A stretch of DNA of 64,000 bases, taken from Halobacillus yeomjeoni (GTDB lineage Bacteria; Bacillota; Bacilli; Bacillales; Halobacillaceae). Within the stretch, counting starts at the first letter, position 1. Each line of letters starts with the position of its first letter. The position numbers were made by a program, and so were the translations under genes. The stretch lies in the NCBI RefSeq assembly GCF_020171525.1, contig NZ_JAIVAI010000003.1, forward strand, positions 1 through 64,000. The letters are read 5' to 3'. Shown here one piece after another: positions 3,862 through 59,930 of the stretch. The notes under the pieces are model-generated. The model ran no database searches, was not told where the DNA came from, and saw only the letters and a list, made by a program, of their open reading frames with translations.

Positions 3862-4120
3862 TAAAAAGCCTCTCGTCCCTATATGGGACGAGAGGCTTGA
3901 TTCCCGCGGTACCACCCAAATTAACGTTCACTAAAACGTTCACTCGAAAAGTCAATAACGGTGACTGTACCGGCAAAGGCTACTTGTTGAATTCACCTCT
4001 GCGACATCCAAGGCGAGTTCATAAAGGTCATGAGCAGCTTACACCAACCGCTGCCTCTCTGATAACATGACTCTTTACTACTACTCCTTTTCTACGTCAA
4101 TTCATATCTAATCGTATCTT
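3862..4120 (-). promoter_or_regulatory. T-box leader of leuS, specifier CUC (Leu)
   Basis: The minus strand holds the canonical T-box GGGTGGTACCGCGG (3917-3904) and a downstream factor-independent terminator: a 14-bp hairpin at 3866-3898 ending in T5. Upstream the Stem I region contains AGAG...GAACTCGCC, whose CTC triplet at 4017-4015 is in the specifier position and reads leucine. Uncharged tRNA-Leu would pair with CUC and with the T-box bulge to favour the antiterminator. The rest of the 3828-4233 gap is leader and spacer. Confidence 0.95.
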
Positions 4121-6914: not shown

Positions 6915-7703
6915 CTATAATTTCGTCTTTTTCAACTGTAACTGCATGAAGTTCAAGCTGTATTCATAGACCATAGGCCATTCAGGTTCATTAAAGATTT
7001 CATGATATAACCCGGGCCATTGTTTATAGCTTTTCTCTGTGAGATCTATTTTATGAAACCATTCTTTCGTTTTACTTACATCGACGATGCGGTCGTCTCC
7101 GGCCTGCATGACTAACAGAGGAACATCAGGAAACTGATCCGTATGACGGAACGCTTCTTTGATCCCTTGTTTGAATTCACGATACCACCGAATCGATACT
7201 TTATCCAAAATCAAATCATCGTCTTCATCTTTTAAAATGACTTTTTCATTCCGTGTGATTAAATTTGGCTGCAAGGAAGCTTTGACTCTCAATCGTGGTG
7301 ACAACCGGTTGAGGATGTAAGAAGCGATTTCCATCGGTTTCTCTGCCCCATTAAGTATTCCAGCTGCAGGAGATGAGAGAATGACTCCTTCCACTCGCGG
7401 CTTCACCTTTTGCATCGTTCGAATCACCGCAATCCCCCCCATGCTGTGACCTAGAAGAAATACAGGCTTATCGGGGTCCGCTTTTTCAATCCATTTCTGG
7501 ATCGTTTCTATATATTCATGAAAGCTTTTGATATGTCCTTTTTTTCCGGGAGATCTGCCTTGTCCGGGCAAGTCATCATAAATGACATCAAAACCATCTT
7601 TGTGGAATTGGCTTGCCAGATCATCGTAACGACCTGAATGTTCGAATGCTCCGTGGACGATAATTACAGTGGCTGCGCTTTGATCTGAAACAAATGATGT
7701 CAT
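6915..7703 (-). CDS. ytpA: Alpha/beta hydrolase, lysophospholipase-like (YtpA)
   Basis: A 262-residue serine hydrolase. The oxyanion HGAF motif lies at ~17-20, the nucleophile elbow is GHSMGG (~86-91) and the distal acid and histidine fit MQAGDDRIVD (~202-211) and GLYHEIFNEPE (~232-242). B. subtilis YtpA is a lysophospholipase linked to bacilysocin; here the role is inferred from family and synteny. First gene of the ytpA-ytpB unit, divergent from ytoA, with AAGGAG upstream of the ATG. Confidence 0.9.
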   Translation of the reverse strand: MTSFVSDQSAATVIIVHGAFEHSGRYDDLASQFHKDGFDVIYDDLPGQGRSPGKKGHIKSFHEYIETIQKWIEKADPDKPVFLLGHSMGGIAVIRTMQKVKPRVEGVILSSPAAGILNGAEKPMEIASYILNRLSPRLRVKASLQPNLITRNEKVILKDEDDDLILDKVSIRWYREFKQGIKEAFRHTDQFPDVPLLVMQAGDDRIVDVSKTKEWFHKIDLTEKSYKQWPGLYHEIFNEPEWPMVYEYSLNFMQLQLKKTKL

Positions 7704-9700: not shown

Positions 9701-9860
9701 AGAAAAAACCCTTCCTGACTCGAGGAAAGGGGTTGCTTCCTTTCGCTCTTATCGTCCAAGGAGCATCGATCTCCTTGCTTCAGGTTAGCACCATGTCATA
9801 TGCATGACGGTTGCCGGGCTTCAAAGGGCCTGTCCCTCCACCGACTCTGGATAAGAGAGT
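9701..9860 (-). promoter_or_regulatory. SAM-I riboswitch (S-box) of metK
   Basis: The minus strand reads CTTATCCAGAG, GGTGGAGGGACAGGCCC, GAAGCCCGGCAACC, then GGTGCTAACCTG and GATAAGAG, the ordered core of an S-box, with P1 formed by CTCTTATC and GATAAGAG. A terminator (9735-9706 hairpin, then T6) follows directly. The remaining stretch to pckA (9861-10208) is AT-rich; a TATACT near 10146 may be the pckA -10. Confidence 0.96.
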
Positions 9861-24276: not shown

Positions 24277-24515
24277 AAAACCCTAAAGCTGAATAAGGGC
24301 TTTAGGGTGGGAATTAGATCCATAGGAAACTAGAGGCAGAGAAAACACACTTCACCTACCTGCTTCGTTCGACATCTTCTCCCATCCAGACTTTCACTGT
24401 CGGTCCCGGATTTTCACCAGGTCCACCGTTTGGATAAACCTCACGGGTCACGGACTTAGAATGATTTCTCATTCATTACCGTCGGTCGGGAATTTCACCC
24501 TGCCCCGAAGATGGA
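24277..24515 (-). promoter_or_regulatory. FMN riboswitch (RFN element) with terminator
   Basis: The minus strand shows CTTCGGGGCAGGGTGAAATT, CCCGACCGACGGTAAT, AGTCCGTGACCC, GGTGGACCTGGTGAAAATCC, GGGACCGACAGT and AGTCTGGATGGGAGAAGA in canonical order (24512-24367). A terminator hairpin, ACCCTAAAGC...GCTTTAGGGT plus T-run, follows at 24308-24277. FMN should shut off ribU. The rest of the gap to 24664 is AT-rich with nothing I recognise. Confidence 0.97.
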
Positions 24516-24648
24516 ATCGATATGTATTTGTATTCTTATTTTATATTCAGGGAACACGTTTGGCAATAAAAATGTTTGAACCATTAGATGTACCAAAGGT
24601 ATATGCTCCACCCAAAAAGTATAAAATCGAAAAAAACCAAAATAAAAA

Positions 24649-32005: not shown

Positions 32006-32270
32006 GGATCTGTTAAAGTCTGTTGTTGATATTTGAAACGATTACTAAATAGTCTCCTTCTGGGTATAGGTGGTCCGATCCGTTATTTACTCAGAGCATG
32101 GGATGGCAGGGAAAACAGTCCGCTCGTAGTTGGTGTACCGACTTCGGTAACGGCCATTACGACCCTGGCACTTTGAAGAGAAGGCTCACGGTACCCCACG
32201 GAAAGCGAGTCATTCTAAAAGGCCGCCTCACACAAGATCTAGGACAGAAAGACCAAGCAATAACAGAGTT
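32006..32270 (+). mobile_element. MITE-like element, copy A (265 bp, internally deleted)
   Basis: Begins GGATCTGTTAAAGT and ends with the degraded complement ...ACAGAGTT. Flanking 8-mers are TTTTTAAA (31998-32005) and TTTATAAA (32271-32278), 7/8 identical. It shares long near-identical stretches with copy D but lacks the left arm and top of D's internal hairpin, as if about 75 bp had been deleted. No ORF. It accounts for most of the 31888-32439 gap. Confidence 0.8.
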
Positions 32271-38059: not shown

Positions 38060-38326
38060 GTATCTGTTAATGCTTAGTGTAATCAAAATCCGTTACACTA
38101 ACTATGAATGGGAGGAAGGGAAAACAGGTAGACTCTTGCGGGAATAAGGAACAAGGTCAGACTCCGGGGAACGAAAAGTTCGAGGAGGCTTAAGCGTTCC
38201 CCCCGGAAAACGGACAGTTTTCCCTTCCCTCCCACACTCCGATAACAAAACGGACCGACACAATCCCCCGGAGAGTAGTCTGGTATGAAATCATTTAAAA
38301 TATCAACGACAGACTTTAACAAAGAC
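38060..38326. mobile_element. MITE-like element, copy B (267 bp)
   Basis: Ends GTATCTGTTAATGC and the complement of GTCTTTGTTAAAGT; flanking 8-mers AATATGAA (38052-38059) and AAAATGAA (38327-38334), 7/8. Inside, GGGAGGAAGGGAAAAC (38110-38125) is nearly complementary to 38209-38225, enclosing a GC-rich core with GACTCTTGCGGGA, a GAACGAAAAGTTC minihairpin and GAGGAGGCTTA. Its right end abuts the pepA terminator. No credible ORF; it fills most of 37966-38370. Confidence 0.78.
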
Positions 38327-40502: not shown

Positions 40503-40682
40503 GGCTCTGTTAATGTTTAGTGTTGATTTATTCGTTTAAAGCCTTTTGTGAGTGAATAGGTGGAAGCTTGCCGGTTCCACCGCAGGAAAGCGGACCCTTC
40601 CCCGAAGGCCCTGCACCAAATCCATTTCTGTCAAACAAGTTTTATAAAACCGAGAGTATCAACCCCACCCTTTAACAGAACC
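40503..40682. mobile_element. MITE-like element, copy C (180 bp, reduced)
   Basis: Begins GGCTCTGTTAATGT and ends with the complement of GGTTCTGTTAAAGG; flanking 8-mers TAAATATA (40495-40502) and TGAATATA (40683-40690), 7/8. Only a short GC-rich remnant (CCGCAGGAAAGCGGAC) of the core remains. Its right end is 4 nt from the T-tract of the yuiC terminator. Confidence 0.78.
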
Positions 40683-41401: not shown

Positions 41402-41477
41402 GAAAATCACCTCTAGGTGTAATCATGTCCAAGCTCGTTCCTTTTATACCTTTTTATGTTTCCCGGACTTTAAAAAA

Positions 41478-41846
41478 GGTTCTGTTAAAGTCTGTTGTTG
41501 ATATTTTAAACGATTACTAAATAGTCTCCGTCTGGAATTAGGGGTCCGGTCTGTTAATCACTCAGAGCATGGGATGGCAGGGAAAACAGTCCGTTCGTAG
41601 TTGGAGTACCGAACTTCGTTAATGGCCTTTCCGCCCTTTCTACTTTGAAGAGGCGGCCTTTTAGAATGACGAGACTCCTGTGGGATAAAGGTACATCGTG
41701 AGACCCTGGAAGGCGCAGCCTGAGGAGGCTCACGGTACCCCACGGAAAGGGAGTCATTCTAAAAGGCCGCCTCACACAAATTCCAGGACAGAAAGAGCTG
41801 ATATGAGCCCACATGTGAAATAACAACACCAAGCAATATCAGAGCC
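41478..41846. mobile_element. MITE-like element, copy D (369 bp, best preserved)
   Basis: Begins GGTTCTGTTAAAGT and ends ...AGAGCC (complement GGCTCTG); flanking 8-mers TTAAAAAA (41470-41477) and TTAAACAA (41847-41854), 7/8. A perfect 21-bp inverted repeat (41650-41670 with 41753-41773) encloses a nested hairpin: GGTAC-CGTGAG pairs with CTCACG-GTACC around AGGC-GCA-GCCT. ORFs across it read repeat sequence and are not genes. It fills most of 41411-41900. Confidence 0.82.
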
Positions 41847-41856
41847 TTAAACAAAC

Positions 41857-46856: not shown

Positions 46857-47423
46857 GGCTCTGTTAAAGTTGATTGTTGATAATTAGTCTTCAAAATAAG
46901 GACATAAAAGTTCAATAGTTTATATCGATATGTGCGGAGGGGCTGCGGGGAATCACTCGCTTTCCGCGGGAGCGCGGTGAGCCTCCTCGGACTTTTCGTC
47001 CTGTGGGGTCTCACCAAGCACTCTCTTCCCGCAGGAGTCTCCCGATTCCCCTCCGCCCTTTGCATTTTCATCTTGATGGGAGGAAGTATAAAATCTTAAA
47101 ACCTAATGCTATATTTAATACTCTTAGGAGTGGCATAAGTATCAGACGATCTTGATAATAGGTCTTTTTTTTACGTAGTCACGGATTTTATACTTTTAAA
47201 AGATCTTGTTTCGAGACACTCTGATGAAGCAAAGGGCGGAGGGAAACGGTGAGACTCCTATGGGACGTGTGGGACAGGTGAGGCCCCGGAAGGCATAGCC
47301 TGAGGAGACTCAGCGCCCGCCCCATGGAAAGCGAACCTTTTCCCGGAGCCATACACGCATACAAACATTTCGTAATGAATTCTTTTTTTGATGGATATAT
47401 CAACACTAAACTTTAACAGACCC
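46857..47423. mobile_element. MITE-like element, copy E (567 bp, two opposed cores)
   Basis: Begins GGCTCTGTTAAAGT and ends with the complement of GGGTCTGTTAAAGT; flanking 8-mers TAATTAAA (46849-46856) and AAATTAAT (47424-47431), 6/8. It contains two GC-rich hairpin cores, ~46936-47060 (inverted) and ~47232-47350 (direct), each with the GAGACTCCT, GGTGAG and GGAAAGCGA elements of copy D. Long open frames across it are repeat-derived. Its right end abuts the yuzB terminator. Confidence 0.75.
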
Positions 47424-58042: not shown

Positions 58043-59605
58043 TTAATTTTTTTCCACTTTCAACGAAGGACTAAAGTAATGAATCGCTATTCCTATGACC
58101 ACCACTAAAATCAGGGTGATGAATAACGGAATCCATACTTGACCTGTCATTCCCAATACAATATAACCGACAGATGCAGCTAATGCTGCGATACCGGCAT
58201 ATGGAAGCTGTGTCATTACGTGATCAATATGATTCGATCCTGCACCTGTAGAAGATAAGATCGTAGTATCAGAAATCGGTGAACAGTGATCTCCGAAGAC
58301 AGAACCCGCAAGAACAGCTGATAGAGCAGGCAGAATAAATGCAGGCTCAGTTACAGCAGCAATTTCGCCGGCAATCGGTAACATGATCCCGAATGTACCC
58401 CAGGACGTTCCTGTTGCCAATGCCATAAAGCCGGAGATGATGAATATCAAGAACGGCAGGTAGGCAATGCTGATATCCGCCTGACTGAATACACTCGCCA
58501 AATACTCTCCTGTCTGCAGTTGACTGATGATATCACCGATCATCCATGCAAAAACCAAAATATAAATGGCCGGAAGCATTGCTTTCAATCCTTCGATAAA
58601 TACATGGCCCATGGAAGATTTCGGTTGAGCCTGACCAGTATATAACACTCCTGCTAGGATTACAGCTGACAATCCACCAATGAACAACGAAATATTAACA
58701 TTCGTATTTGCAAAAATCGATAAGATATCGACTTGCTCTCCAGAGTTATTCACTCCTGTTACGATCATAGAAACGACAGTTCCAAGAACAAGTGCGACAA
58801 TTGGAAGAATCAAATGAGAAATCTTCCCGTTATCATGCTCTTTAAACTCATCGTTAAGATCTCCAGGGACATCCCCTTTATCAGGGTTCGTCAATTGTCC
58901 TGTTTCCAATGCACGCTCTTCATGTTTGCGCATCGGTCCAATATCCAACTTCAAGAAAATCGTCAAGAATACCAGCAACAATGCAGCAAAAGCATAAAAG
59001 TTGGCTGGAATCATCAAAATGAATGCCTGTAGTGCTTGGTAATCTGTGATTTCATTCGCCGCCAGAATGCTCCCGATTGTACCAATGATATAAGCGCCCC
59101 AACTTGAAATTGGAGATATGACCGTTACAGGCGCAGATGTTGAATCAATATAATATGCCAGTTTAGCTCTTGATAATTGATATCTGTCAGTTACCGGCCT
59201 GGCAACCTGACCTACTGCGAGCGCATTGAAGTAATCATCAATAAAAATAACGATCCCTAGTATTGCTGGAATTAATTTTGCACCCCGACGGGTACGGATT
59301 CTTTTTACTGCCCATTTTCCAAATGCACGGCTTCCGCCTGAAGCTGTCATAAAGGCAGTCGTCACACCTAATAGGAATAAAAAGCCTAATAGGTATAAGC
59401 TTCCTGTATTCAGTGATCCGTCACTGATGAATATAGATGAAAATAAGGACCAAATTAAAGCAAGTCCTGATCCGATATCCATTTGTGTGAGCATGAAAGC
59501 TCCGACAATGATCCCTACACCCAGGGATAAGATTACTTTTCTTGTGAATAGCACAAGTAAAAGCATAAGTAATGCTGGAATTAAAGAATAAATGGTTCCT
59601 TCCAT
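58043..59605 (-). CDS. NhaC-family transporter, probable lysine transporter (LysW type)
   Basis: A 520-residue membrane protein with about twelve helices in the NhaC/ion-transporter superfamily. FLFLLGVTTAFMTASGGSRA, IFIDDYFNALAVGQVARPVT and VFGDHCSPISDTTILSSTGA are the conserved motifs. The family includes Na+/H+ antiporters, but the lysine riboswitch in front points to lysine uptake, as noted for riboswitch-linked NhaC members in Firmicutes. ATG at 59605 follows GGAGGGG. Confidence 0.9.
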   Translation of the reverse strand: MEGTIYSLIPALLMLLLVLFTRKVILSLGVGIIVGAFMLTQMDIGSGLALIWSLFSSIFISDGSLNTGSLYLLGFLFLLGVTTAFMTASGGSRAFGKWAVKRIRTRRGAKLIPAILGIVIFIDDYFNALAVGQVARPVTDRYQLSRAKLAYYIDSTSAPVTVISPISSWGAYIIGTIGSILAANEITDYQALQAFILMIPANFYAFAALLLVFLTIFLKLDIGPMRKHEERALETGQLTNPDKGDVPGDLNDEFKEHDNGKISHLILPIVALVLGTVVSMIVTGVNNSGEQVDILSIFANTNVNISLFIGGLSAVILAGVLYTGQAQPKSSMGHVFIEGLKAMLPAIYILVFAWMIGDIISQLQTGEYLASVFSQADISIAYLPFLIFIISGFMALATGTSWGTFGIMLPIAGEIAAVTEPAFILPALSAVLAGSVFGDHCSPISDTTILSSTGAGSNHIDHVMTQLPYAGIAALAASVGYIVLGMTGQVWIPLFITLILVVVIGIAIHYFSPSLKVEKN

Positions 59606-59673
59606 AATGTTCCCCTCCGTATATCTTTTGATGTCTACGGGATGGAAGGCTACTGTGGAGTTAAAATGAGGAA

Positions 59674-59930
59674 TAAAAAAAGACAATGATAGACAATAAT
59701 CCATCATTGCACATTAGCGGCAATTCGATTATCCTCCATTTCGATCAGTAGCGCCCCATGCACCTAAAAAGCATGCATGACAGTGTATCCCTTGTTCAGA
59801 AATTACACCAGCTCAGGATAGCCTGACACCACTACCATGAGCTTCGGCAAACATCCCTTTCATCAATGATCAACGTTTGTCAGAACTCCCATTGATTACT
59901 AATGACATTTGCACCTCTACCTCACCGATC
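59674..59930 (-). promoter_or_regulatory. Lysine riboswitch (L-box) with terminator
   Basis: The minus strand reads GAGGTAGAGGTGC (59923-59911), GAAAGGGATGTTTGCCGAAG, TCAGGCTATCCTGAGCTGG, ACACTGTCATGC and GGGGCGCTACTGATC (down to ~59741), the order of an L-box. CAATGAT...ATCATTG and T7 at 59710-59674 form the expression-platform terminator. Lysine should switch off the transporter. Confidence 0.92.

Follow-up and report, generated by a model that had tools for sequence, protein, structure and literature searches.

The locus

The window, meaning the whole 64,000-nucleotide stretch of Halobacillus yeomjeoni DNA analysed here, contains at 41478-41846 (plus strand) a 369-bp MITE, a kind of non-autonomous transposon. 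Its terminal inverted repeats read GGTTCTGTTAAAGTCTG... on the left and ...AGCAATATCAGAGCC on the right. Directly outside lie TTAAAAAA (41470-41477) and TTAAACAA (41847-41854), the two copies of a target-site duplication, identical in 7 of 8 positions. Within the element is a hairpin, called D below (41650-41773, plus strand), whose outer arms, P1, enclose the nested helices P2 to P5. P2 is CC(T)GTGGG/CCCACGG, P3 is GTAC/GTAC, P4 is CGTGAG-A-CCCT/GAGGAGGCTCACG and P5 is AGGC-GCA-GCCT.

A sequence-only reading of this DNA had described a perfect 21-bp inverted repeat (41650-41670 with 41753-41773), nested CGTGAG/CTCACG and GTAC/GTAC stems and an AGGC-GCA-GCCT minihairpin, and all of these are present. 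Its coordinates are correct for the hairpin, but they cover just the inside of the larger element. The fold was recognised, while its place as a module of MITEs was missed.

The covariance model described below matches in full at four places in the window: 38113-38231 (plus), 41655-41770 (plus), 46939-47057 (minus) and 47235-47352 (plus). The second of these is the D hairpin, with 122.2 bits. The first is copy B (91.5 bits), which has a right terminal repeat ending at 38326 and a left end that is not recognised. The other two, E1 (117.4 bits) and E2 (103.3 bits), stand head-to-head in one MITE (46857-47423) with the same family of terminal repeats and a target duplication with 2 mismatches. 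As had been claimed, the arms and minihairpins of B and E1 are different from those of D; E2 is a further copy. At 32006-32229 (plus strand) lies a decayed copy, consisting of a left terminal repeat, a B arm and the 3' half of a D hairpin, its right end being unrecognised. A short element without a hairpin (40503-40682) has the same terminal repeats and a target duplication that agrees in 7 of 8 positions.

The minus strand of the window also carries T-box (3881-4103), SAM (9746-9857), FMN (24370-24516) and lysine (59741-59927) riboswitches, as well as a terminal part of a 16S rRNA at 1-70.

Of 21 congeners, 19 lack the D copy between the same two genes, which remain neighbours there. Those 19 gaps measure 82-368 bp and have no model match, against 494 bp in the window. 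For one of these congener loci (L290), an alignment shows the D MITE to be absent. As to the remaining two congeners, G006 carries a pair of hairpins in the gap, and G011 a single one on the corresponding side of the 105-aa gene; in G011 the other neighbour gene was not found within the locus.

Sister genomes also have terminal repeats of this family beside genes and without the hairpin (L044-L070), as if bounding gene cassettes. These genes are of the NUDIX, isochorismatase, GNAT, metallo-beta-lactamase fold and RDD kinds; a second end was seen only for short elements.

Structure and covariation

As RNA, the plus strand of the D hairpin (124 nt) has a predicted folding energy of -71.5 kcal/mol (z -9.2, with 0 of 200 shuffles as good), and the minus strand one of -70 (z -9.0). 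As DNA, the plus strand gives -39.8 (z -8.5) and the minus strand -38.5 (z -9.2). The two strands fold almost equally well because the hairpin is an inverted repeat. In copy B (z -3.0, equalled or bettered by 3 of 200 shuffles), the minimum-energy structure does not follow the consensus within the arms, and the same goes for several other single copies, the B type above all. For copy B alone, the consensus inner fold is not predicted, which corrects the earlier account.

The consensus structure was written from 13 diverse copies as a 42-pair covariance model, R1. From the outside inwards it has the outer arms P1, then P2 (CC(T)GYGGG/CCCRCGG), P3, P4 (CCCC versus GAGGAGG) and P5, with a conserved internal loop, AGACT opposite AAAGCGA, between P1 and P2. 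The core had been called branched. R1 has 0 branch points and describes one long, imperfect, unbranched hairpin instead. The motifs that had been put forward as constant and unpaired are not all unpaired, nor all constant. The CC of GACTCC pairs with the GG of GGAAAG, GAGGAGG has four of its G paired to CCCT/CCCC, and GGAAAGCGA reads GGAAAGGGA in D and GGAAAACGGA in B.

Changes on both sides of a pair are found for 29 of the 42 pairs in the 13 seed copies. A larger set of 108 copies came from 80 of the 118 loci that were fetched, the remaining 38 being unused up to that point. In the 108 copies, two-sided changes occur in 35 of the 42 proposed pairs, and 86.3% of cells are paired against 63.5% after shuffling. 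The covariation score is 0.461 against 0.123 shuffled, which 0 of 500 shuffles reach. The 38 unused loci (59 copies) again give 35 of 42 pairs, with a score of 0.485 against 0.130, in alignments that, like all those used here, are fitted to R1 and lean towards it. With the partners shifted by 1-3 columns, the score is 0.085 at most.

Shared descent was modelled in a tree-aware null, computed with a custom script and not with R-scape, in which substitutions are re-placed randomly on a FastTree tree in 12 simulated alignments. There are 18 column pairs above every value from this null, and all 18 are in the structure (10 in P1, 1 in P2, 3 in P3, 2 in P4 and 2 in P5). The hairpin is genuine, with covariation well outside what chance would give. 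The sequence-only reading had suggested a covariance model followed by R-scape as a check; the structure passes this R-scape-like version of it. Its proposal of a covarying, selected RNA or single-stranded DNA structure is supported by the 35 pairs, by the 18 out of 18 and by the G·U excess described below.

The same reading had offered an alternative, in which the arms arise by duplication of one inverted repeat per copy. This does not suffice, given the compensated alternatives and the covarying helices P2-P5. Within one arm type and one genome, compensated alternatives occur at 11 of 42 pairs in 42 D-type copies, and at 8 of 42 pairs in 36 B-type copies, in both cases from H. yeomjeoni. For some of them the one-sided intermediates are present as well. 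Such pair-by-pair compensation within an arm type means that wholesale replacement of arms is not the sole process.

Which strand is folded

A palindrome kept at the DNA level, or maintained by template-switch repair, should contain A·C and G·U mispairs in equal numbers. Counted in well-aligned pairs, with a selection criterion that is symmetric for both mispairs, G·U outnumbers A·C by 64 to 19 over genus-by-pair combinations (p 7e-7). Over locus-by-pair combinations in the previously unused loci, the ratio is 50 to 17 (p 7e-5). This excess indicates that selection sees one strand in single-stranded form, be it RNA or DNA. The plus strand is the more stable fold in 83% (RNA) and 90% (DNA) of 90 copies.

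These counts also bear on the idea that pairing is a form of mutational bookkeeping, where template switching in imperfect palindromes copies changes between arms, so that pairing is kept without selection. Perfect 21-bp arms would be a natural outcome of this, as would compensated changes among young copies, and recombination between arms is suggested by the deleted hairpins and the seemingly inverted interiors. The equal numbers of G·U and A·C that it predicts are not what is observed however, and a model that includes the short inner helices matches 110 of 135 genera. The idea is already disfavoured, and is regarded as very improbable.

Among 78 young copies (two types, all from the H. yeomjeoni genome), one-sided G·U and A·C stand at 46:44 when counted by cells, and at 35:21 when counted by distinct type. 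The contrast between young and deep ratios is suggestive only (Fisher p 0.085).

To weigh RNA against DNA, apical loops were parsed in 62 of the 108 copies. GNA makes up 15 of 20 triloops and GNRA 3 of 31 tetraloops, and in 6 copies there is an apical CTTG between G and C.

The carrier elements

With up to one mismatch allowed, GAGACTCCTGYRGGA occurs 147 times as a motif in the 3.27-Mb H. yeomjeoni genome, against 1 for the same pattern read backwards. In the sampled loci of this genome, terminal inverted repeats of about 28 bp (GGCTCTGTTAAAG...) delimit 57 elements of 157-581 bp. Their 8-bp target duplications are exact in 29 of 57, and have at most one mismatch in 39 of 57, where shuffled partners yield 0.6 and 1.3. 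The duplications are 91% AT. Terminal inverted repeats together with 8-bp target duplications identify these elements as MITEs, which they also resemble in being short, repeated and insertion polymorphic.

The usual element is laid out as end, hairpin (minus), hairpin (plus), end. In loci scanned for hairpins, most of them preselected for the hairpin motif, 31 of 44 elements have two hairpins, 11 have one and 2 have none. The orientation of hairpin pairs no more than 500 bp apart is highly regular: 39 of 42 are head-to-head in the H. yeomjeoni genome, and so are 32 of 37 in the 118 loci from other genomes. Such inverted doublets are a feature of the REPIN type. For the B and D types, the hairpin is some 75-95 bp from the nearest transposon end. 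Because of the head-to-head pairing, the folded strand at both ends runs 5' to 3' towards the nearest transposon end.

Where hairpins were lost among 9 aligned elements, this happened through deletions that left part of the hairpin behind. The D element lost its second hairpin in this way, with one arm left: alignment with the two-hairpin elements L012, L010 and L025 identifies 41571-41593 as the remnant arm of a deleted B-type hairpin. In two single-hairpin derivatives (L364 and L369), the interior seems to be inverted between its own arms, which suggests recombination across the arms.

Distribution and gene context

With filters strict enough to lose weak matches, and with at most nine candidates scored per genome (a limit that many genomes reached), R1 has matches in 311 of the 397 genomes sampled from the order, Bacillales, and in 110 of the 135 genera represented. 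With similarly strict filters it matches 4 of 398 genomes in a sample of the phylum, three of them from the same order (H. yeomjeoni included) and one from the same class.

In the 108 copies from other genera, the core is found between four kinds of inverted end: GGCTGTTTTCG (9 copies), CTGTAGACAAA (9), GGCTCTGTTAAA (7) and GGCTGGGACA (5). Any of these is present in 30 of 108 copies, where at most 0.05 would be expected for each. The other 78 have none of the four within 300 bp, so a MITE context is established for only part of the copies from other genera; systematic counts of target duplications concern the H. yeomjeoni genome. In a de novo search for terminal repeats, 39 of 108 copies scored above the threshold. 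When each copy was shuffled three times and the best shuffle kept, 23 of 108 did so. Because this search is noisy, the named end patterns were used instead. Six loci (L037, L039, L041, L104, L175 and L179) have hairpins of this family between GGCTGGGACA-like ends, which is another MITE type.

With at least four kinds of ends around one core, the hairpin could conceivably be a mobile unit in its own right, separate from the MITEs. Some enzyme would then transfer it in folded form, as single-stranded DNA or RNA, and it would lodge in many MITE families. Its REPIN-like doublets would suit such a unit. Furthermore, 596 of 2094 similar hairpin pairs have no detectable flank similarity, and in part of 13 inspected pairs the similarity stops near the hairpin base (E1 versus Halobacillus loci L116 and L147). 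Some of the 'unrelated' flanks look like diverged homologues however, for which reason independent movement stays a candidate only, and other similar pairs extend well past the hairpin. The losses described above left remnants, not precise excisions, and the core is all but missing from RAYT-like and IS200-like loci (next section). Independent movement is considered rather unlikely.

Gene context was assessed with simple open frames as gene calls; 23 of the 108 copies are at locus edges and 2 are inside long frames. Relative to co-directional flanking genes, 29 hairpins point the same way and 22 the opposite way. Copies are depleted in divergent gene gaps (8 of 83 versus 60 of 252, p 0.005) and enriched in convergent ones (24 of 83 versus 39 of 252, p 0.009). 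Unbiased orientation and avoidance of divergent gaps are as expected for tolerated insertions, not for cis regulators.

These numbers matter for a different possibility, which is that the hairpin is an RNA element useful to or tolerated by the host. In that case a factor such as RNase III would cut or bind the transcribed hairpin, and each copy would be selected for this. The effect might be to insulate neighbouring genes or to make a small RNA. Here the strand-specific G·U excess is as it should be, as is the lean of young copies to G·U by distinct type, and two opposed hairpins provide one sense copy in either direction of transcription. Resident hairpins are moreover less diverged than spacers. 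In 32 H. yeomjeoni copies, chosen by hairpin motif, divergence is 0.03-0.07 in hairpins, 0.14-0.18 in spacers and 0.12-0.14 in terminal repeats; in two copies chosen by their ends the contrast is weaker (26/489 versus 32/332, p 0.026). The lower divergence could reflect selection on resident copies, and would then fit selection at host level. Against this stand the lack of preferred orientation to co-directional genes, the absence of the window insertion from most congeners, and the even count by cells in resident copies. Both the host element itself and the proposed effects on neighbours or small RNAs are judged unlikely.

Neutral decay of resident copies was considered too, and rejected. The even 46:44 fits it, but the lower hairpin divergence and the 35:21 by type do not. 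Region totals that include inverted secondary hits were left out of account.

Known families and candidate movers

In the window and 18 loci, the hairpin has no match in Rfam 15 at gathering score. The best matches below threshold (E up to 5) are MIR820, with 23 of the 196 bits needed and on the minus strand, and tsr24, with 15.2 of 50. One and the same stretch of the S. aureus tsr24 (RF02577) is matched at 15-17 bits, again below threshold, in the window (41665-41759) and in L126 (6690-6793, 16.7 bits). A remote relative, or a resemblance of shape only, are both possible. Bacillaceae-1 RNA (RF01690) is also from Bacillaceae, but its model does not match the core. In L126, from Halobacillus halophilus AcN7-4, a Bacillaceae-1 RNA (71 bits) sits inside a seemingly broken core hairpin at 6980-7300. 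By eye, it lies between a 5' half, with only 14 bits to the model, and a 3' arm.

ISL3-family elements have an 8-bp target duplication and GGCTCT ends. The elements described here similarly have ends that start with GGCTCT, and an AT-rich 8-bp target duplication. The ISL3 and IS1595 families are both absent from the H. yeomjeoni genome, and a GGCTCTGTTAAAG pair flanks not one of the 30 ISL3 loci taken from the order sample. At the few of these 30 loci where ends are clear, they read ...TCTTCGCTATTTAGTGTT or otherwise. Identity as an ISL3-family MITE is not supported, since the ends differ, and ISL3 or IS1595 as the mover is unsupported, as both are missing from the genome and the ISL3 loci have no GGCTCTGTTAAAG pair. 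From 28 congener loci with these ends, the longest inner frame was taken for 14, and Pfam searches on 9 gave no transposase and one reverse transcriptase.

REPINs are inverted hairpin doublets with conserved unpaired bases and single-strand recognition, features in which the present elements resemble them. The H. yeomjeoni genome has two Y1_Tnp genes, both RAYT-like (G000:C6:51501-51836 and 59436-59762), and both adjoin an open frame that we take to resemble part of an Mg-chelatase-like ATPase. The core is present in 0 of 20 RAYT-like loci (18 from other genomes and these two, with about 2.5 kb to the left and right, or a shorter flank where one contig stops), and in 1 of 30 IS200-like loci. 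A RAYT-driven REP or REPIN system is rejected on this count. Neither an Rfam family nor a RAYT gene nor an ISL3 transposase accounts for the hairpin.

Structured bacterial MITEs, such as ERIC, NEMIS, bcr1 and RUP, are able to fold. By analogy, the hairpin element may work like these, with doublets and a strand-specific fold that recall REPINs. PMC3733652 lists all four as bacterial MITEs, and as described there, they are like the present elements in being short and gene-less, with terminal inverted repeats, and adjoining genes. Going by that description, one covarying core with at least four kinds of ends, found in most sampled genera and arranged head-to-head, sets the present elements apart. 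REP/REPIN sequences with RAYT, a subject of PMC3733652 as well, differ in that here the hairpin is about 120 nt, there are 8-bp target duplications and terminal repeats, and no core was found beside the 20 RAYT-like genes. Bhal-1 and Bhal-2 are stem-loop families of 74-76 bp in B. halodurans, according to PMC2267715. They too are repeated stem-loops in a Bacillaceae genome, and differ in length in a comparison made by description only. Integron attC sites, which have R'/R'' boxes and an integrase, offer a parallel only in the logic of a folded strand.

Five core words of 13-14 letters gave no occurrence in the searchable literature, and no paper or database naming the hairpin was found there; this search covers text outside subscription papers and supplements.

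Interpretation

The reading that is favoured here, held as somewhat probable, is that the hairpin is a structured inner module of MITEs, and that its fold is needed in single-stranded form for propagation. Most likely, the fold is conserved through a requirement in cis for propagation as single-stranded DNA or RNA: the plus strand would have to fold as one or the other for the element to spread. Selection would then act on the proliferating lineage, and not on each resident copy.

In DDE transposition, joining involves the 3' end of the strand that runs outward at the cut ends. If a transposase acts at the ends described here, the 3' end joined to the target would belong to the plus strand. 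The likeliest role would be that of a subterminal hairpin, read by the transposase or by a host factor when the plus strand is exposed. Next likeliest would be recognition of the hairpin as RNA, on outward transcription of the element.

The covariance model could be used to annotate or mask such repeats, and what it captures is a conserved structured module, without an Rfam entry, in most sampled genomes of the order. If the fold is needed for movement, very many natural copies would be available for testing theory on the selection of structure. DNA transposons with terminal repeats would then also meet single-strand recognition, two worlds that are usually apart.

A bolder proposal, which is itself unlikely, is that this is an undescribed type of transposon end, with subterminal hairpins on the outward strand, a required single-strand fold, and use in common by different end families in most Bacillales sampled. 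If true, the hairpin would be an exchangeable licence for propagation, and perhaps a mobile unit by itself.
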